Shown one piece after another: positions 1 through 22,610 of a stretch of DNA of 38,250 nt. Under the pieces are notes generated by a model. It did no database searches, was not told the origin of the DNA, and saw only the letters and a program-made list of their open reading frames with translations. The position numbers and the translations under genes are program-made. The stretch comes from a virus, in the IMG/VR virus record IMGVR_UViG_3300020204_000162, positions 1 through 38,250 of that record; one strand, given 5' to 3'. Numbering within the stretch: position 1 is the first letter of the stretch; each line of letters opens with the position of its first letter.

Positions 1-689
1 TGAAGTTGTTTAACGGTTGCATAAGCTTCTTCTAATTCTTCTTTCATTGCTTCTTTTTCAGAATCTTTAGCTTCCATTTTTTCTTCTTTTTCATCTTCAT
101 CTTCTTCATCTTCTTCACGAAGAATTGCTTCTAGAATCTCATCAATTGATTCCATTGGCATCATTTCATCTTCATCTTCTTCATACATTCCTTCAGATGC
201 TAAACCATCTTCGATGCTAGCATCTTCGCCTTCAGTAGCCATACCTTCGTGCTCTAAATCACCTTCTAATTCGCGAATAATTGATTCTAGATCTAAATCT
301 TTGTCATATCCTTCGTTGTATTCGTCGGTCATTTCTTCTGCATCCATTTCTGGCTCTTCTTCTGGCATTTCTTCGCCGTCTTGTGTATAAATGTCAAATT
401 CATCAAATTCTCCGTCATTATTAACATCAATTGATAAATCACCAACATCTACACCAGCTCCGGCTTCATCACCCATTTCTGCATCCATTTCTGGTTCTGC
501 ATCAATTGGTTCTTCTACTGACATTTCTTCTTCTTCACCCTCGATTTCATTAGTTAGTTTAGTTGCTAACATTCTTTCTAAACGAGGAGCAAAGGCTTCT
601 TGTAAAGCAATTTTAGCGTTTGCTAAAGCAGTTTCTTTAACAGCTTTTGCGTCAGCGATTGCTTCTTTTAGCAAGTCTGATTTTGCCAT
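1..689 (-). CDS. Prohead core scaffolding protein, gp22-like (3' end cut by window)
   Basis: The reading frame starts at an ATG at 689 and stays open to the window edge (229 codons seen). A strong AAGGAG ribosome site (695-700) supports the start. The N-terminus (MAKSDLLKEAIADAKAV) is helical and contains an LKE|A site of the (L/I)xE type cut by T4-type prohead proteases. The rest is extremely acidic (long Glu/Asp runs, little aromatic content), ending in a charged helix. Such composition, plus position just downstream of the prohead protease, fits the T4 gp22 scaffold, which forms the prohead core and is degraded during maturation. An unusual feature is a dockerin/EF-hand-like loop at residues 88-99 (DVNNDGEFDEFD). 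The assignment rests on composition and synteny, since scaffolds diverge quickly; an acidic structural protein of another type is possible. Confidence 0.72.
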   Translation of the reverse strand, partial: MAKSDLLKEAIADAKAVKETALANAKIALQEAFAPRLERMLATKLTNEIEGEEEEMSVEEPIDAEPEMDAEMGDEAGAGVDVGDLSIDVNNDGEFDEFDIYTQDGEEMPEEEPEMDAEEMTDEYNEGYDKDLDLESIIRELEGDLEHEGMATEGEDASIEDGLASEGMYEEDEDEMMPMESIDEILEAILREEDEEDEDEKEEKMEAKDSEKEAMKEELEEAYATVKQL

Positions 690-868: not shown

Positions 869-1114
869 TTAAAAAGAATTTAAATCTTTAATTCGTTGAA
901 TAAATTGTGCTGCTTGTAATTGTTTTCTACGTGTTACACTAGGTTTTTCAAATTCTCTTCGTTCTTTAATTTTTTCCAATACTCCGGATGATTTTACTTT
1001 GCGTTTCCAAGATTTAAGAGCAAATGCTAAATCTTCTCGTTGTGTACCTACTACATTAACTGCTAAAGGATTGCCCGGAACAATTGTTTGATGTTGTTTT
1101 TGTTTTTTACTCAT
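869..1114 (-). CDS. rpsU-like: Phage-encoded ribosomal protein bS21
   Basis: This small basic protein (81 aa) matches the bS21 family pattern: after a short N-terminal extension comes LAFALKSWKRKVKSSGVL (about residues 29-46), then KERREFEKPSVTRRKQ and a basic helical tail. The ALxxxKRxxxxxGVLxxxxxRxxFEKPSxxRR arrangement is the family signature. bS21 sits on the 30S platform near the 3' end of 16S rRNA and helps mRNA binding; a phage copy could replace the host protein in ribosomes during infection. It is the last gene before an intrinsic terminator and is 9 nt from the preceding gene, so it is co-transcribed with the head genes. Phage bS21 homologues are known, including in marine T4-like phages. 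The call is from motif recognition only. Confidence 0.8.
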   Translation of the reverse strand: MSKKQKQHQTIVPGNPLAVNVVGTQREDLAFALKSWKRKVKSSGVLEKIKERREFEKPSVTRRKQLQAAQFIQRIKDLNSF

Positions 1115-1651: not shown

Positions 1652-2029
1652 TTAACCAACATCATAATATTTACGAAGGCCTTCTGCAATATCTTCATAT
1701 GCAGCACTTAAACGTTGTTGAAGTTGACTCATTTCTTTTGCTGTTGCTTCGAATACTTTGTATGATTCATTAAGGCCTTTCATATGACGATTGATAGTCA
1801 TTTTATCAAACCAGCCTTCATCTTGTAAAGCAATGTTTTGTGCTTTTTCTACAATATCTCGTACTCGTTCGGTAAGTTCTTGCAAATTACCTTTTCCGTA
1901 AACTGATTCACCCATAGCTGAAAAATTCTTTACAGCTTCCATGAATTGTTGTTTTTCTTCGCGAGATAATTTTAATTGCTCTTCGCCACCGTTAAGTGTT
2001 TCTAAAATATATGCCAAATTGCTTTTCAT
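1652..2029 (-). CDS. Unknown helical head-region protein, 125 aa
   Basis: No family is recognised. The sequence is almost wholly helical with heptad-like spacing (for example about residues 85-120, KVFEATAKEMSQLQQRL), and has no Cys. The N-terminus MKSNLAYILE|T contains an ILE site compatible with prohead-protease cleavage. The start ATG overlaps the protease stop codon (TAATG, position 2029), so translation is probably coupled to that of the prohead protease. Position between gp21-like protease and the scaffold suggests a prohead core or assembly-factor role comparable to the small T4 core proteins (gp67/gp68). That is inference from position only. Confidence 0.62.
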   Translation of the reverse strand: MKSNLAYILETLNGGEEQLKLSREEKQQFMEAVKNFSAMGESVYGKGNLQELTERVRDIVEKAQNIALQDEGWFDKMTINRHMKGLNESYKVFEATAKEMSQLQQRLSAAYEDIAEGLRKYYDVG

Positions 2030-2661
2030 TATAGTATCCTACATTTCCCATCTTCACATAATATTGATGTGATGATATTATTTATTTTATCGTATTTACT
2101 TTGGTTTGATTGTTTGTTAACTGATTCATTCATACTAACAGGACGCATAAAAGCCCCATGAGTAGAAGGATTAGATACGAAATCCCAACATATTAATTCA
2201 AAATCTTCTTGAACTTCAACCGTGCCTTCACTTCGTAATTCTTTAACTGAGCCTAATCCTCGAGAAGAAATTCCTAATGTAATTCCTGCTTTAAATAATT
2301 CTTTTAAAATTTTACCCGAGGGTGTATCTAAAACTTGAACTGCACCCATTAAATTGTCACCGTTCCACCAAATTTTTAAAATATTGTGTGAAACATTGTT
2401 TAAGTTAACAATTGATGATTCTGGATGATCTAGTTCACCTAATGCTCTGTGTTGATCGATATATTCTTTTTGGTAACGTACACATTCTCTTTGTAGAATT
2501 TGTTTTGGATATACGCGGCCGTTTTGATTCTTGGCGCCTGCACGTTGCAAAACACCTTGAACTACAAAACCGCCCGGAACGCCATATGCGGCGCCTGATG
2601 ACTCTTTTAAAGAACCAATCGGTTTAAATGGCATATATTCTACAATTAATCCTTTTGACAT
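2029..2661 (-). CDS. 21: Prohead core protease, gp21-like (S77 family)
   Basis: This is the serine protease that matures T4-like proheads by cleaving scaffold, capsid and internal proteins after (L/I)xE. At 210 aa it is close to T4 gp21. Visible features are the N-terminal fold with GVLQRAGAKNQNGRVYP (about 37-52), the LGELDHPES segment with candidate catalytic His79, SHNI with a second His (92), and the GISSRG loop with candidate nucleophile Ser132/133, followed by the GLGSV stretch. The last 25 residues are Asn/Ser/Lys-rich and may be a self-cleaved tail. A GGAG ribosome site (about 2668-2671) lies just upstream. It is the first of a run of overlapping genes leading to bS21, consistent with head assembly. 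Confidence 0.93.
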   Translation of the reverse strand: MSKGLIVEYMPFKPIGSLKESSGAAYGVPGGFVVQGVLQRAGAKNQNGRVYPKQILQRECVRYQKEYIDQHRALGELDHPESSIVNLNNVSHNILKIWWNGDNLMGAVQVLDTPSGKILKELFKAGITLGISSRGLGSVKELRSEGTVEVQEDFELICWDFVSNPSTHGAFMRPVSMNESVNKQSNQSKYDKINNIITSILCEDGKCRIL

Positions 2662-2662
2662 T

Positions 2663-3355
2663 TTATTCTCCTAACGCTCTAACTCGCTCTGATATTTTAA
2701 TTAATCTGTTTGATATTTTATTTAATGCTGTTTCTACAGCGCTACCATATCCTGTTCGATTAACACCTGATTCTGTTTTTAATCTTGATGCATAGTTAAC
2801 TGTTTTTTCAATTTCTTGAAGTTGTTTTGCGACAGTTTTTATTGTTTCTTTAATTTTTTGTTCAGGCGTTTGTTTAGGATTGCCATTTGCAAAAGATCTA
2901 TATGATTCAATTAATTGTTCATATTTTGTTTCTATTACATCTTCTACAGTAAGTTTTGTATGATTTGCTAGATCTTTTATATTAGCAGTACCATATGGTT
3001 GATTTGTAAATTTAACTGGATATTCTTGATCTTTATTTGGCCATTTATTTACATCTCTAGCAAATGGAAATTTATCTTGCGCATTTTCTTCCGACGATTC
3101 TGGTGTTTGATCTAGAGTAGTTTTCCATTTAAATGTTGGTGGCGTATTCACTGATTCATATTGTGCTTTTTTGCCTTTCCATTTTCCTGGTTTAGCAAAT
3201 GCTGCAGGTGTATTATAACCAGCGATAGCACCAGTTACATTTTGTTCATCAATTTCATTATCACAAACACATTGATCGTTTAGTCGATCACATGAATCAC
3301 AATAATTATCTAGTTCTAGGAATTTTTCTTCCATTTCTCGTAAAAGTGATTTCAT
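2663..3355 (-). CDS. Unknown head-region protein with N-terminal Cys cluster, 230 aa
   Basis: Function is not recognised. It begins MKSLLRE|MEEKF, which fits a short leader ending in a prohead-protease (L/I)xE site. Residues 19-31 hold a CxxC...CxC cluster (YCDSCDRLNDQCVCDNE) that could bind zinc or form a redox pair. The middle is Pro/Lys/Asn-rich and probably extended; the C-terminal third is helical with regular Ile/Leu spacing. The start overlaps the stop of the preceding gene (TAATG at 3355) and has a strong AAAGGAG site (3364-3370). It lies between portal and protease genes, where T4 carries small head genes, so a head vertex or core role is plausible. Confidence 0.62.
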   Translation of the reverse strand: MKSLLREMEEKFLELDNYCDSCDRLNDQCVCDNEIDEQNVTGAIAGYNTPAAFAKPGKWKGKKAQYESVNTPPTFKWKTTLDQTPESSEENAQDKFPFARDVNKWPNKDQEYPVKFTNQPYGTANIKDLANHTKLTVEDVIETKYEQLIESYRSFANGNPKQTPEQKIKETIKTVAKQLQEIEKTVNYASRLKTESGVNRTGYGSAVETALNKISNRLIKISERVRALGE

Positions 3356-9950: not shown

Positions 9951-11972
9951 TCAACGTGCGTATTTCAATACTCCTAGTATCTGATTGACTGGAGCGAATG
10001 CGCCGGTTAATTTATATGTATTGCCGCCGTATGTAAATACTATGCCCTCTGAAGGTACAATTGCGTCAAAACCTCCGATGCGTTCTATACGACGTAATTC
10101 TTGTTCTAATTTTGAAATAGTTTCAGGATTTGGATTATTTTGTAAATCTTTAACTAATTCTGCCATTTCTTGTTTAATTTCTTGTACTGATTTAGATGGA
10201 TTTGCAGCTAAGAAATTTGTAGCATTTTTTAATACTACTGCACCTAATCTTAAAAAGATAGTTTCAAATGGTTCCATGTTTTGTTTGTAATATTGTTTGA
10301 ATTCTTTTTTATCAAATTCTAACGCCCAATTTAAAAAATCTGCATTATCAATTTGTTTTTTAAGTGCCGTTAAATTTGCAGATTTATCAAAGAATCCCCA
10401 ACGATATACTAATGCATCTAATATTTGTTCTGGAATTTCATATTCAAATTGTTTCGCCTTAGATAATATTACATCTCTCCACCATGCTCTATGATATTCA
10501 GTTACGAGATCTGTTTCTCGCAATCCGTAACGTTTACGTAATTGATCTACTTCGTTAAAGAATGCAGCCTGTTGATCTTCAAAGTCACTTATCCGGCCCA
10601 TTTTGATTTGTTGTGGAGGAATAAATGAAAATGTTTTTTGAAGATGTGCGTTTGCATCTTGTATAATACGTTGTACGGTTGCTCCGCCCGTTAAATCAGT
10701 TTCAACAATGTTTGCATTTTCATCATATTCAACTAAATTATGAAATTGTAATACTGCAACTTCGTATGAAATAACATTTTTAGTTGCAGGATAAATAATT
10801 TCCATGTTAGCAAATACTCGTCCATTTTTGAAAATTTGATTTAAAGTTTCTGGATTAACTTTACTAAATGCGTTGGATAAATCTTCTGCTGCTCCCCCGA
10901 ATGCATCTGATATAGCCCCGCGATTATCAAATTTTGCTTGAATTTCTTGCACCGACATTGGATTAATTACATTACCTTTATTACGTGCAAAACCAATTTG
11001 GCCGTCTTTCCAAGTAACTTGAATATTTTGACCATCAGTTTTTTCAGTAACCGCTGCTTCGATGTCTAATCGTCCTTCTAATGCTCTAGAAATAATTTCT
11101 TTGATATCATTAAAAGTTAATCCATGATCATCATATGGATGTGCCATATGTCCTGCGGCGCCGCCTTCGGTAATAAGTGATTCAATTAATTCGGCACCCA
11201 TTACTGTTTTAGGAAATTGATCGAAATCATATACAAACGATTCATCATCTTGTCGATCTAAAAATTTATTTAGTTTGTTGATTTTCTTTTTATGACGTTG
11301 TGTTTCAGCTTTATTCATTGTGGCTGCAAATACTTCGTCAACTTCTTCTTGTAATTCGTTAGTCCACCAATCTTTAGTAAATAACGCTTCTTGCATACCT
11401 GTTAAAATTTGCCAAGCATTTTTAACTTCCGCTTCATCGTTATTTGGGTATGACGCACGAAATGTTTTATAATCTCGGTCTGCTAATGATTGCCGTACTA
11501 CAGTTGCAGAAATAGGTGTTGTGCTATTTTTATATGTTAATGGATCAACATCGATACTTAATTCAGTTGCATCAATACCAGCTGGCATTTTACGACTATT
11601 TTTATCTCCAATTGTAATATATTTATCTACATTTGGAACAAATTCTTTTGCACGTACATAATCATCTCCTTTTGTAGATGCAGCCATAGCATATCGGCCC
11701 GTTGCATCTTGTGGTAGTGCAAATAAATATTCATATGCAGCTGTAATAGGAGAATTAAATTCAGTTGGTTGAATTTCTACGTTAGGATTTGAATTTAAAA
11801 TATTGAATAATTTAATAGTTTTATCTCTGGTAATTCCTTGTCGTTCTTTTGGTCCAATTAAAAGAATTACGCGATCTACTTGAGGATGCTCAGCATAGCG
11901 TTGTGCTAATGCTAAATGTGCTCCTGTTAATGGCTTGAATCCGCCGGGAAATAAAACTGTTATTTTATTCAT
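9951..11972 (-). CDS. Nucleotidyltransferase fused to a ligase-like domain, 673 aa
   Basis: Two enzyme-like domains are joined. Residues 1 to about 170 are a HIGH-superfamily nucleotidyltransferase: FPGGFKPLTGAHLALAQRY gives the GxFxPxTxxH substrate loop (11-19) and ISATVVR (154-160) the ISxTxxR motif, as in NMN/pantetheine/glycerol-3-P nucleotidyltransferases. After a helical linker, residues about 270-673 resemble the ATP-grasp-like core of nucleic-acid ligases: EKTDGQN (310-316, candidate adenylated Lys311 of KxDG), FARNKGN (328-334), VFANMEIIYP (motif III-like), then SEGIVF and KLTG near the C-terminus (motif IV and V-like). A segment SLITEGGAAGHMAHP at the junction contains an ITE|G site. 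Substrates are unknown; RNA ligation, end repair or NAD/nucleotide metabolism are options. The ligase assignment is from motif order and is less certain than the transferase. Confidence 0.72.
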   Translation of the reverse strand: MNKITVLFPGGFKPLTGAHLALAQRYAEHPQVDRVILLIGPKERQGITRDKTIKLFNILNSNPNVEIQPTEFNSPITAAYEYLFALPQDATGRYAMAASTKGDDYVRAKEFVPNVDKYITIGDKNSRKMPAGIDATELSIDVDPLTYKNSTTPISATVVRQSLADRDYKTFRASYPNNDEAEVKNAWQILTGMQEALFTKDWWTNELQEEVDEVFAATMNKAETQRHKKKINKLNKFLDRQDDESFVYDFDQFPKTVMGAELIESLITEGGAAGHMAHPYDDHGLTFNDIKEIISRALEGRLDIEAAVTEKTDGQNIQVTWKDGQIGFARNKGNVINPMSVQEIQAKFDNRGAISDAFGGAAEDLSNAFSKVNPETLNQIFKNGRVFANMEIIYPATKNVISYEVAVLQFHNLVEYDENANIVETDLTGGATVQRIIQDANAHLQKTFSFIPPQQIKMGRISDFEDQQAAFFNEVDQLRKRYGLRETDLVTEYHRAWWRDVILSKAKQFEYEIPEQILDALVYRWGFFDKSANLTALKKQIDNADFLNWALEFDKKEFKQYYKQNMEPFETIFLRLGAVVLKNATNFLAANPSKSVQEIKQEMAELVKDLQNNPNPETISKLEQELRRIERIGGFDAIVPSEGIVFTYGGNTYKLTGAFAPVNQILGVLKYAR

Positions 11973-18985: not shown

Positions 18986-19465
18986 TCAAAAGAATTTCTT
19001 AACTATTTTTGGTTCTTCGCCTTTTTTCAAACATTCTTCGAGCCATTCTGCAGGAATATCCCGTTTAGCAACATGTTTTATTCCTAGTTTAAGAGCATAT
19101 GCTTCGTATGTAGTAGGAGAACCTTTTGTAATTTTTTGTCCTGGATTTTGAAATACTATTCGGATATCAATTCCTGGATTTGATGTTAATACATGTTTCA
19201 TTTTAGTACGATCGGCGGTAGTCCATCGACCTTTTGTTTCAACATACATTGTTTCGCCATTACGTTTTGTAAATACGAAATCAGGAGTATATTTTGCTTT
19301 GCGTTCTGGTACTACGTATTTTAATGTTTCTGTTTCATAATTCAAAGGATATTCCGTTTGATTTATTTGCATTGAAACTGATAATTCTAATCCAGATTTA
19401 TAACCATGCTTTAAAGCATTTGCTCGTTTGCTATTTCCCAAGCTATGAAAATGATTTTTTGCCAT
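18986..19465 (-). CDS. Endonuclease I, T7 gp3-like Holliday junction resolvase
   Basis: The protein aligns by eye over its whole length with T7 endonuclease I (149 aa): SGLE near the N-terminus, YTPDF, YVETKGRW, then DIRIVFQNP, KGSPTTYEAYALKLGIK and IPAEWLEE. The catalytic set is complete: Glu27, Asp62, Glu76 and Lys78. The enzyme resolves branched DNA, which in T4 is done by the unrelated endonuclease VII (gp49), and packaging needs branch-free DNA. Its start is 12 nt past the M15-like gene and it is followed by the hairpin-rich gap before the primase. It is the third gene in a block headed by the MORN protein, so it may be expressed late, in time for packaging. Confidence 0.93.
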   Translation of the reverse strand: MAKNHFHSLGNSKRANALKHGYKSGLELSVSMQINQTEYPLNYETETLKYVVPERKAKYTPDFVFTKRNGETMYVETKGRWTTADRTKMKHVLTSNPGIDIRIVFQNPGQKITKGSPTTYEAYALKLGIKHVAKRDIPAEWLEECLKKGEEPKIVKKFF

Positions 19466-19477
19466 AACTTAATTTAA

Positions 19478-20284
19478 TTATATGTAATTCCATTCAAATG
19501 ATTTTGTTTTAGTAACATATGAATTCGTAGTTACATCGTATTTATAATAAACAAGCTCAAATGAAACGCTTTTTCCATTTAATATAGCGTTAGATAATGT
19601 AGTAACAATTTGTCGTATATATTGTATATTTTTTTTATCTTGTTCAGATGTTGTTGAATCGTTTTGTAGTCTAGTTAATTCTGGTTCATAAAGTTGTTCA
19701 AATCTAGACGTAAGCTTATCTGCGGCACCTTCTTCATCATCTCCTATTCCTGGAGCGAATGGATTCCATGATCTAAATTTTCCAAAGTAATCTTCTGAAC
19801 CTGCTTTTGTTGAAGAAATGTTATAATATGCTGAAATTAAATTTACTAAATATGAATTATTCTTTTTATTAATATATGATTCTTTTTTTTGATCTTCTAC
19901 TGAAATAAAATCTACATGTACATGATCAGTATGTGGACTTTTTCCATTATATGGTTTTCCGGCAAAATTTGTTGATGAATTATAAATTTTTCGATACCAT
20001 ATTAAATTTTTTATATCTAAATCTTCTTTATGTTTTAGTAAAAAACTATTAACAGTATCGCCTAATTTTTTATCTTCAAAAACCATAAAATCTAATGCAT
20101 TTCCATACATATGTTGTGATACTACATCAGTATCTGCAATATTTCTTGCATTTTTACCCCAAATATTTTTAAATTTATTTTGTCCAAATTTATTTAATAC
20201 TTTAGATAAACAACGACGAGCAGCAGGGGATAAAGAAGAAGGATCTGGAATAAAATTTTCAAATAATAAATCTTTTAATTTCAT
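19478..20284 (-). CDS. M15/VanY-like peptidase with possible capsid-targeting leader, 268 aa
   Basis: Residues 56-66 read SQHMYGNALDF and residues 118-125 HTDHVHVD, the SxHxxGxAxD plus HxH zinc-site pattern of M15 (D-Ala-D-Ala carboxypeptidase/endolysin-type) enzymes and related VanY-fold domains. His58, Asp65 and His121/His123 are the likely metal ligands. Such enzymes cut peptidoglycan stem peptides. The C-terminal half (about 130-268) is Asn/Ser/Lys-rich with no family recognised. No signal peptide is seen. The N-terminus MKLKDLLFE|N resembles the leader of the neighbouring kinase-like protein and ends in an (L/I)xE prohead-protease site, which suggests packaging in the head rather than a classical endolysin role. 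It is 4 nt from the MORN-repeat gene. Endolysin remains a real alternative. Confidence 0.75.
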   Translation of the reverse strand: MKLKDLLFENFIPDPSSLSPAARRCLSKVLNKFGQNKFKNIWGKNARNIADTDVVSQHMYGNALDFMVFEDKKLGDTVNSFLLKHKEDLDIKNLIWYRKIYNSSTNFAGKPYNGKSPHTDHVHVDFISVEDQKKESYINKKNNSYLVNLISAYYNISSTKAGSEDYFGKFRSWNPFAPGIGDDEEGAADKLTSRFEQLYEPELTRLQNDSTTSEQDKKNIQYIRQIVTTLSNAILNGKSVSFELVYYKYDVTTNSYVTKTKSFEWNYI

Positions 20285-20288
20285 TGCA

Positions 20289-22049
20289 TTATCTTTCTAC
20301 TATTTTAACAAATCGTTCAGGTACGTAAACTAATTGCTTACTTATTTCAGCTTTATACATTTTATATTGAGTTGATGAACCACCTTTGATTTTAGCAGTT
20401 TTTGTACCTAATAACGGATAACCCGTAGTTCTACATTTCAGTGTCGTTGGCTGTTTCGGCCAAGTTAAAACAAATTGAGAACCTTCTAATTCATATATAT
20501 TAGCAGTATTTGATGTAAATACTACGTATTTTTTCTTAGCAGGTGGGTTGGGAGCTGGCTCTGGTGCAGGCGGTTCTTCTGGTCCAGGAATTAAATTATC
20601 ATCAGCGTTTGGTATAAACTTATTGTTAAGTTTTTTTATCGTTGCCGCATCAGTTACTGAAACGATATTATCAAATATAGATACATCTAAATTATAAAGA
20701 TCTTCATTTTCAAATTTAGATACATCTACAACTTTACCCCAATATTTCCCTACAATATCATATACATATAAATTATCATTTAATTTATATACTTTAAGTT
20801 TTTTATTATTTCCATCTATATCATCAACATCAATTTCTAAATCTTTTGGATAAAGTATACCACGTTTATATTCTCCATCTATAAATTGTCCAATTTGTTG
20901 TTTATTTTTATTAAAAACAGTTCCGTTCCAGAGAACATTATCTTTAAATTCTCCATCAAAAATCATACCATTTCCATATGTGCCCCGGCCTGTGATTTTC
21001 TTGAATTCGAAACCTTGTTGACCTGATGATCTAGTATAAACTGTACTTTCAACTTCGCCTTCAAACGTTTTAAATTGATCATCTGTTGCCGAATAATACT
21101 CAACCTCACCTTTATATGGCGCGCCGTTTTTAAATTCTCCATAAAATGCTCCTTCGCGCTTTGTTCTAACCTCACGAATGTTTTTTGTTCCAAATATTGG
21201 CTGAAACGTTAAAGATTCTCCATCTGTAGAAACTGACATTTTTGCTTCGCCTTCAAACCCATTACTATTAACATCACTATGTAATAAGTTATTATTTGTA
21301 TCATATACATCATATTTTCCGGTATCTACGTTAATAGTATTACCATCATCATCAGTAACAGGTACCCCATCATCATCAATAGCAGGTTCCATACGATTTT
21401 TTATTATAACCTCTTTAGAAGCTAAATCTGCCTGTACATCATCTCCTACTACATCTATTTTAATTTTATCAAGTTTTGGTAAATTTAATGTAGTAGATAA
21501 ATTAAATTTTTTACCAGAATCTTGTAGATAAGTAAACCATTTATTTGCTTGATCTAAGTTCATTAATGTAACTGACTGAATCTTATCTATTTGTTGTTCT
21601 GATTGCGCAAAATATGTTGTTTTTTGTAATGCTTGTTTTATTTCTTTAGATAATTGATTAATACCCGTTTTATCTTTATCAATAGCCCAAACATTCCAAA
21701 CTTTTTTATTAGTTTTATCTAAAGCTTGAAAATAAATAAACAACCTTGTTTTAGGATTATATTTTACTGGAAAATATTGTTCTGCTGCTTTTGCAAAAAC
21801 TTGTTTAACAAGTTCATCTAATTCAGAATCTGAATAAGTACCTTTTTTTGTTCTTTTAAAAATAATAGGTAATCCTGTGATAGCTCCGGCAGCTCGAGCT
21901 GCAGAATCTACTTTCGCACCTATTCTCGTATTATATGCTAGTATATATGGAGCTTCCCATTTTTTATCAGCCTCTGACAGTAAAGATGATTCAGTTAATT
22001 GTACTGCGTAATTTTTAATATATTTTCTAATAAGCTGATTTATCATCAT
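20289..22049 (-). CDS. MORN-repeat protein, 586 aa
   Basis: The central part (about residues 295-400) contains MORN-like repeats of the YxGxFxxGxxxGxG type: FYGEFKNGAPYKGEVEY, FEGEVEST, GRGTYGNGMIFDGEF, LWNGTVF and QFIDGEYKRGILYP. MORN modules are short beta-hairpin repeats linked to lipid or protein binding. The N-terminus (MMINQLIRKYIKNYAVQLTE|S...LLSE|A) has (L/I)xE sites that could be prohead-protease cuts, then a domain starting KWEAPYILAYNTRIG that is not recognised. An Asp-rich segment (about 210-240) includes DDDGVPVTDDDGN, possibly calcium binding. The C-terminal 80 residues look like an SH3-type beta barrel after a Pro-rich linker. It is the first of a three-gene block with the M15-like peptidase and endonuclease I. 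Function unknown. Confidence 0.68.
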   Translation of the reverse strand: MMINQLIRKYIKNYAVQLTESSLLSEADKKWEAPYILAYNTRIGAKVDSAARAAGAITGLPIIFKRTKKGTYSDSELDELVKQVFAKAAEQYFPVKYNPKTRLFIYFQALDKTNKKVWNVWAIDKDKTGINQLSKEIKQALQKTTYFAQSEQQIDKIQSVTLMNLDQANKWFTYLQDSGKKFNLSTTLNLPKLDKIKIDVVGDDVQADLASKEVIIKNRMEPAIDDDGVPVTDDDGNTINVDTGKYDVYDTNNNLLHSDVNSNGFEGEAKMSVSTDGESLTFQPIFGTKNIREVRTKREGAFYGEFKNGAPYKGEVEYYSATDDQFKTFEGEVESTVYTRSSGQQGFEFKKITGRGTYGNGMIFDGEFKDNVLWNGTVFNKNKQQIGQFIDGEYKRGILYPKDLEIDVDDIDGNNKKLKVYKLNDNLYVYDIVGKYWGKVVDVSKFENEDLYNLDVSIFDNIVSVTDAATIKKLNNKFIPNADDNLIPGPEEPPAPEPAPNPPAKKKYVVFTSNTANIYELEGSQFVLTWPKQPTTLKCRTTGYPLLGTKTAKIKGGSSTQYKMYKAEISKQLVYVPERFVKIVER

Positions 22050-22056
22050 AATCCAA

Positions 22057-22070
22057 TTTTATATAAATAT
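22057..22070 (-). promoter_or_regulatory. Candidate late promoter, ATATTTAT motif (MORN block)
   Basis: The coding strand reads ATATTTATATAAAA, 7 nt before the first ATG (22049) and 10 nt before the second (22046). A GGAT element between motif and start suggests that the second ATG may be used. Confidence 0.5.
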
Positions 22071-22073
22071 GTA

Positions 22074-22610
22074 TCACCAATCAACCATTACCATTTTACC
22101 ATTCCACATCATAACGTTATCAGATCTAAAATCTAAATCTAAATCAAATTCCGGAATATTTAATTTTTGAACATCTGATTGCAATGCATTTAAAAAATTA
22201 TCCAACATTGGATCTAAATTATCAGTTTCTTGAGTAAAATCAAAAATAGAAACTTCACCTCCTTCATCTCTAGCAAATGAAGCAAAGTCTTGCATAAACA
22301 TATCAATTGATTTTTTAATACGAACAGGTAATTCAGATGCATTTGCCATTATATACATATTTTTACCATCAACATAATATACCGGAATAAATGTAGTAAA
22401 TTCATTGTATCGATTTACAATAATATCAGCAACTTCATATTCATCTTGTTCTTTTGTAATTTTAAATGTTTTATCTTCACCATCAATTTCATAAACACGA
22501 CCGTTATCTCCAGCTCCAATAAGACGAAACTGGTTGTTACGTATTTTATCCAAACAACGATTTAAATCTTGTTCAGACATTTCTCGAAGAAGTTGTTTTA
22601 ATCGTATCAT
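22074..22610 (-). CDS. Small protein-kinase-like protein with possible capsid-targeting leader, 178 aa
   Basis: Key residues of the kinase/phosphotransferase fold are in order in a very small protein. IGAGDNGRVYEI (31-42) is a Gly-rich loop, TFKITKE (48-54) supplies a candidate ATP-binding Lys50 and nearby Glu residues, MYIMANASE (85-93) looks like a hinge, and LDFRSDNVMM (159-168) is a catalytic loop in which Asp160 and Asn165 have the five-residue spacing of HRDxxxxN. The protein ends at MVDW (175-178), matching the metal-binding Asp of DFG/IDW, so nearly all the C-lobe after it is missing. The His of HRD is replaced by Leu. The leader MIRLKQLLRE|M resembles that of the M15-like protein. 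An AAAGGA site precedes the ATG, 1 nt from the upstream gene. Could be an active minimal kinase or a pseudokinase. Confidence 0.7.
   Translation of the reverse strand: MIRLKQLLREMSEQDLNRCLDKIRNNQFRLIGAGDNGRVYEIDGEDKTFKITKEQDEYEVADIIVNRYNEFTTFIPVYYVDGKNMYIMANASELPVRIKKSIDMFMQDFASFARDEGGEVSIFDFTQETDNLDPMLDNFLNALQSDVQKLNIPEFDLDLDFRSDNVMMWNGKMVMVDW

Follow-up and report, generated by a model that had tools for sequence, protein, structure and literature searches.

The window analysed here, a stretch of 38,250 nucleotides spanning positions 1 to 38,250 of IMG/VR record IMGVR_UViG_3300020204_000162, is a contig from a T4-like virus. Along its minus strand, baseplate and tail genes precede a trio encoding a kinase-like, a MORN-like and an M15-like protein, followed by an endonuclease, a primase, a gp46/47-like recombination nuclease, a nucleotidyltransferase-ligase fusion, terminase, portal, gp21 and the start of the scaffold gene. 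Terminase, portal and protease were assigned through PHROG families (2, 213 and 207, respectively); the recombination nuclease and the fusion were named from sequence only. The genes with candidate leaders are as follows (^ denotes the predicted cleavage position):

22074..22610, minus strand: mini protein-kinase-like protein, 178 aa; leader MIRLKQLLRE^M (leader codons 22581-22610)
20289..22049, minus strand: 586-aa protein with MORN-like repeats; sites LTE20^S and LSE26^A (leader codons 21972-22049)
19478..20284, minus strand: M15-like peptidase; leader MKLKDLLFE^N (leader codons 20258-20284)
2663..3355, minus strand: 230-aa prohead-core protein in gp67/gp68 position, adjoining gp21; start MKSLLRE^M
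2029..2661, minus strand: gp21-type prohead protease (Peptidase_S77; PF03420, E=3.5e-32 to 5e-34; PHROG 207, E=1.4e-55)
1652..2029, minus strand: 125-aa prohead-module protein between gp21 and scaffold; start MKSNLAYILE^T
1..689, minus strand: scaffold (gp22-like), 5′ part only, its C-terminal tail lying past the contig end; start MAKSDLLKE^A

The preliminary description of this DNA had picked out MIRLKQLLRE^M, MKLKDLLFE^N, MKSLLRE^M and the paired QLTE^S and LLSE^A as N-terminal protease sites, and had placed gp21 in the same window; all are present as listed, with PF03420 marking gp21 at 2029-2661 (minus strand). Two of its assignments hold in part. The 230-aa protein, counted among the leader proteins, does start with MKSLLRE^M, but E7 is in place in only 26/36 homologues, i.e. 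without strict conservation, and by position this is a prohead-core gene rather than an effector. The repeats of the 586-aa protein do look MORN-like, but a Pfam search gave no MORN match above threshold. The protease itself starts with LIVE8^Y and [LI]xE is found in 45/46 of its homologues, as it is in 40/42 homologues of the 125-aa protein; E9 of the window scaffold is not strictly conserved among homologues.

A T7 endonuclease I-like resolvase gene (18986-19465, minus strand; PF05367, E=1e-31) lies directly downstream of the M15-like gene. Within the head module, a ribosomal protein S21-like gene (869-1114, minus strand) occupies the same place as in sister lineages and in Mel-JY01.

Conservation and enrichment of the leaders

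Across 55 distinct kinase homologues, L4, L8 and E10 of the leader are invariant and position 7 is L or I in 55/55, while variability at positions 6 and 9 ranks with the highest in the whole protein. Position 9 (P2) ranks about 164th of 178 residues in conservation; together with the fixed L8 and E10, this is as expected for an (L/I)xE site, and LxE is found in 52/52 kinase homologues. Among M15 homologues, 13/15 retain [LI]xE in the first 14 residues with the rest of the leader swapped (MKLKDLLIE, MIKLNQILSE, MKINLSE, MRHNLTE), and homologues of the MORN-like protein carry [LI]xE within their first 24 residues in 7/7 cases. Because 25% of all genes have [LI]xE within their 14 N-terminal residues, lone lax matches such as MKSLLRE mean little.

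The counts that follow use a strict leader pattern, M(0-3)[LIM]xx[LI][LIF]xE. Two of the 35 window genes carry it, against 0.11 expected. Using the kinase and gp21 as queries in two viral scans, we gathered 160 related loci. In three relatives of ~160 kb (G001-G003), strict leaders start 14, 10 and 15 genes against 0.44, 0.51 and 0.39 expected from internal positions, with a maximum of 3 across 300 shuffles: a 20-40 fold enrichment spread over about 25 unrelated families. An unsupervised comparison of N-termini in these three genomes and the cultured Flavobacterium phage immuto gave 11-24 shared pairs, compared with 0-2 for mid-protein and 0-5 for C-terminal segments, and recovered the same leader classes. 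In T4, it returned true homologues and one non-homologous group, IPII/IPIII. Homologues of known tail and baseplate genes are without the leader. Relaxed matches on ribonucleotide reductase (MEISNKILSEI) and tail proteins (MAVYRIFPE) were treated as chance.

The leader genes of G001-G003 also share an upstream element. TATTTAT lies within 40 bases upstream of 23/41 leader genes and 20/49 structural homologues, compared with 2/30 non-leader enzyme homologues (per-genome Fisher tests, 8e-4 to 2e-5). Its presence at both leader and structural genes fits a shared late promoter, which we regard as the likely function of this element in the three genomes. TATTTAT also occurs upstream of their GroEL-like genes and often stands very close to the start codon, where a short or absent 5′ UTR is possible. 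At the DNA level, codon identity among leaders (0.59-0.68) is above expectation (0.43-0.55), so some DNA-level copying is possible; upstream of leader genes, identity is only 0.30-0.38.

Leader classes and their relation to the scaffold and prohead module

These T4-like phages have three main leader classes:

Class A, M(I/K)xLKx(L/I)LxE: common to a prohead-module protein beside gp21
Class B, LxE-NMRRFGTKN-LxE
Class C, LxE-(F)xRMQKLAGII-xE: a copy of the scaffold C-terminal tail

We searched for all three in 2.9 million viral contigs; the counts that follow are samples, taken among the matches listed. MIRLKxLLxE stands at ORF starts in 97/101 cases, distributed over 27 families. The class B core ENMRRFGTKN is N-terminal in 87/87 and spans 43 families, with (L/I)xE after it in 82/87 and hydrophobic-x-E before it in 86/87. 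ENMRRFGTKNL was also sought inside head proteins, with nothing found among the matches listed. The RMQKLAGII scan reached at least 111 distinct ORFs. Among the matches listed, RMQKLAGI is at the extreme C-terminus in 92, N-terminal in 19 and elsewhere in 0; each N-terminal copy belongs to a different, unrelated protein and lies within its first 20 residues, and a protease-type site follows the tag in 19/19. A search of cultured phages for the leader peptide ILAENMRRFGTKNL gave none.

The C-terminal copies tie class C to the scaffold. Clade scaffolds end in ...LSEGFELANRWKKLAGLL, and of the C-terminal RMQKLAGI cases that we checked, 62/66 immediately precede the major capsid gene, and a further one is a scaffold. 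The remaining 3/66 (L221, L223 and L266) are different proteins, which start with MELRKYIREMVEAELDE or similar and carry an RMQKLAGIIK tag at the C-terminus. Among the matches listed, [LIV]xE lies at most 14 residues before the tail in 89/92 C-terminal copies (L211-L330). With sites both after the leader tags and before the C-terminal tails, release of the tail by the protease is possible in either arrangement. The site before the KLAGI tail is reminiscent of the maturation site of herpesvirus scaffolds.

Scaffold tail and leaders can be found together in one genome. In immuto, two unrelated proteins start with MKKQILSEQF(R/K)RMQ(K/F)LAGIITES, and the scaffold, encoded directly upstream of the capsid gene, ends in SEQVSRWQKLAGIIK. 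Leader and scaffold tail agree at 11/14 residues, with a score of 48 against 26 for the next immuto protein. Likewise, G014, a 159 kb contig, has three RMQKLAGI-type leaders and a scaffold ending in VIARMKKLAGL. Two other leaders recur in immuto (L162, L180): MENFDLKKFLVENKLTxNSxLLxE on 4 unrelated proteins and MKKSxLxxxI(K/R)xE on 3.

Class A is tied to the prohead by a different gene. In a sister lineage, the orthologue of the 125-aa prohead gene (window 1652-2029) starts with MIRLK(D/N)LLxE in 11 contigs and belongs to the prohead module, between gp21 and the scaffold. The relation of leaders to the prohead is in both instances one of sequence identity, with the scaffold tail and with the leader of the prohead-module gene. 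Our literature searches, mostly outside subscription journals, found no report of shared leaders copying a scaffold tail.

Predicted cargo and proposed head targeting

The proteins behind these leaders include several enzymes. The window kinase is modelled by AlphaFold at a pLDDT of 88.8, with leader residues 1-7 at low confidence, and its best Foldseek matches are APH kinases, protein kinases (APH/kinases E about 1e-4) and the small effector kinase OspG, which it resembles in size. GxGxxGxV, K50, E57, D158/D160, N165 and D177 are conserved in the homologue alignment, giving the Gly-rich loop, beta-3 Lys, catalytic Asp/Asn and DFG-like Asp of a kinase-like fold. The chain stops right after the DFG-like Asp, and the C-lobe beyond is missing. 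A tblastn search with the kinase in cultured phages found none; a syntenic divergent kinase with the leader MISIYNILKE^V is encoded in immuto (L162:13366-13806). In the M15-like protein, SxHxxGxAxD and HxH motifs can be recognised by eye, and the protein matches the endolysin family phrog_16241 (E=1e-8). In relatives, the leader families include an SGNH-like + Phage_lysozyme2 + M15-like fusion, a lysozyme of the GH24+LysM type, an HEIEH protein and a DUF5872 protein. Leader proteins differ from phage to phage, unlike core genes. A leader-bearing 124-aa protein in L565, for which Pfam gave no match, appears by eye to have an ADP-ribosyltransferase-like fold (ILYHATYKPLLKKIQTDGL), recalling T4 Alt.

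In T4, gp21 is reported to cleave after L/I-X-E, with residues 4 and 7 of IPIII serving targeting and residues 8 and 10 serving processing (PMC9026906, review). The clade leaders have the same traits: a short shared N-terminal leader with hydrophobic residues at 4, 7 and 8 and E10, as in the 10-residue capsid-targeting sequence of IPI, IPII, IPIII and Alt; an (L/I)xE site with a free P2; unrelated cargo; and an encoded gp21-type protease. As a control, a lax pattern gave 19 matches in 251 T4 genes, including gp24 (MAKINELLRE^S), IPII, IPIII, Alt, gp22, gp21 and gp68. The systems differ in that several leader classes occur here, with 10-15 class A leaders per genome compared with about four leaders in T4. 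The sequences are also different from MKTYQEFIAE, one class is identical to the scaffold tail, and some tags are C-terminal. A literature search found no virion proteome, mass spectrometry or packaging assay for clade phages. Cyanophage Syn9, which has gp21, gave no strict leaders; not every T4-like phage therefore has the system. The sole possible case in Syn9 is MKKFSAFLSE^A on a cytidyltransferase. The T4 DNA-end protector gp2 (gene 2, L205:31061-31885) starts with MAIFQIINE^S, matching the strict motif, and may be either an unrecognised leader or a chance match.

Other phages load heads in partly similar ways. P1 DarB likewise uses an N-terminal capsid-targeting signal to load defence-related cargo (PMC9024508), but P1 has no separate scaffold protein, and the signal, in residues 6-10, is not reported to be common to many proteins. 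Engineered P22 cargo enters the procapsid when fused to the scaffold, which needs its C-terminal helix-turn-helix for assembly (PMC9962691); here, the arrangement is apparently natural, and the tail sits at the N-terminus instead, ahead of a protease site. Phages of the SPN3US/phiKZ type likewise have many ejection proteins in the inner head that a gp21-like protease cleaves (PMC5694885), but these have long propeptides and no short shared tag.

That the leader is a capsid-targeting peptide with a gp21-type (L/I)xE site, as the preliminary description proposed, is strongly supported by position-specific conservation, enrichment and the T4 control, and further by the prohead-module leader beside gp21, the scaffold-tail copy and the late-promoter-like sites. 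During prohead assembly, the leader would bind whatever partner the scaffold or core proteins bind, so that otherwise unrelated proteins expressed late are taken into the prohead. Cleavage after (L/I)xE by the gp21-type protease would then free a mature protein that stays in the head with the DNA. The window kinase, M15-like peptidase and MORN-like protein are predicted to be such cargo and, by analogy with T4, would probably be ejected into the host. We consider this reading as a whole, from targeting through cleavage and retention to probable ejection, highly probable. Because the tag ends at a site for the phage's own protease, and in some relatives copies the scaffold tail, these phages probably load varied cargo into their heads.

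Several alternatives bear on parts of this reading. Leader proteins might act within the prohead, in the core, in size control or in DNA arrangement, or leave it again, rather than being ejected. T4 gp22, gp67 and gp68 are core proteins of this kind, cut by gp21 and mostly removed (PMC9026906), and the class A leader of the sister-lineage prohead gene could be read in the same way. We regard a purely prohead role as unlikely, however, since many leader proteins are enzymes without an obvious assembly role (kinase, GH24+LysM lysozyme, PF18013 lysozyme, M15) and vary between phages as core genes do not. Several of the cargo domains (PF18013, M15, GH24, LysM) are ones that tails or endolysins typically have, and the leader could instead address the tail or baseplate, or delay lysis-enzyme activity. 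This is improbable given that one class is the scaffold tail, another sits on a prohead gene and the leader is missing from homologues of known tail and baseplate genes.

The shared 5′ ends could also be mobile DNA cassettes without a function at the protein level, each comprising a promoter, a ribosome site and a few codons, in keeping with the raised codon identity and the TATTTAT shared by many leader genes. Yet upstream identity is just 0.30-0.38, codons differ, variability concentrates at positions 6 and 9 with residues 4, 8 and 10 fixed, and the scaffold copy stands at the C-terminus, making cassettes very improbable. Chance similarity of amphipathic M-K-L-L starts, which the 25% frequency of [LI]xE in N-termini might suggest, is already refuted for strict motifs by their 20-40 fold enrichment and near-exclusive N-terminal position among the collection matches listed, and its likelihood is negligible.

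The capsid-targeting interpretation was thus right in its main part but understated, in that the leaders form a multi-class modular code. The T4 capsid-targeting sequence had been known in only a few proteins of a single model phage; its logic recurs here as a widespread multi-class tag system, and the identity of one class with the scaffold tail offers a concrete loading mechanism. It is probable that environmental T4-like phages use a general code of removable N-terminal, sometimes C-terminal, tags on many fast-changing effector genes, one of them a copy of the scaffold tail that binds coat or core, with flanking protease sites for removal once loading is done, and that each phage delivers its own dozen or more effectors from its head, which could be listed from sequence. 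Among proteins now annotated as hypothetical, one could then predict which are packaged in the head and probably injected as effectors, including kinases, peptidases, lysozymes and possibly an ADP-ribosyltransferase-like protein. Immuto, being cultured, permits direct testing, and the tags could double as ready-made encapsulation signals.

A site of the same type also occurs inside a window protein. The nucleotidyltransferase-RNA-ligase-like fusion (9951-11972, minus strand) contains LITE^GGAAGHM just ahead of its ligase part, and a ligase-like protein on the L504 contig starts with MIRLKKLLSEVLLNE^GGAYGHM. As judged from these motifs, the fusion might be cut into two enzymes within the head.
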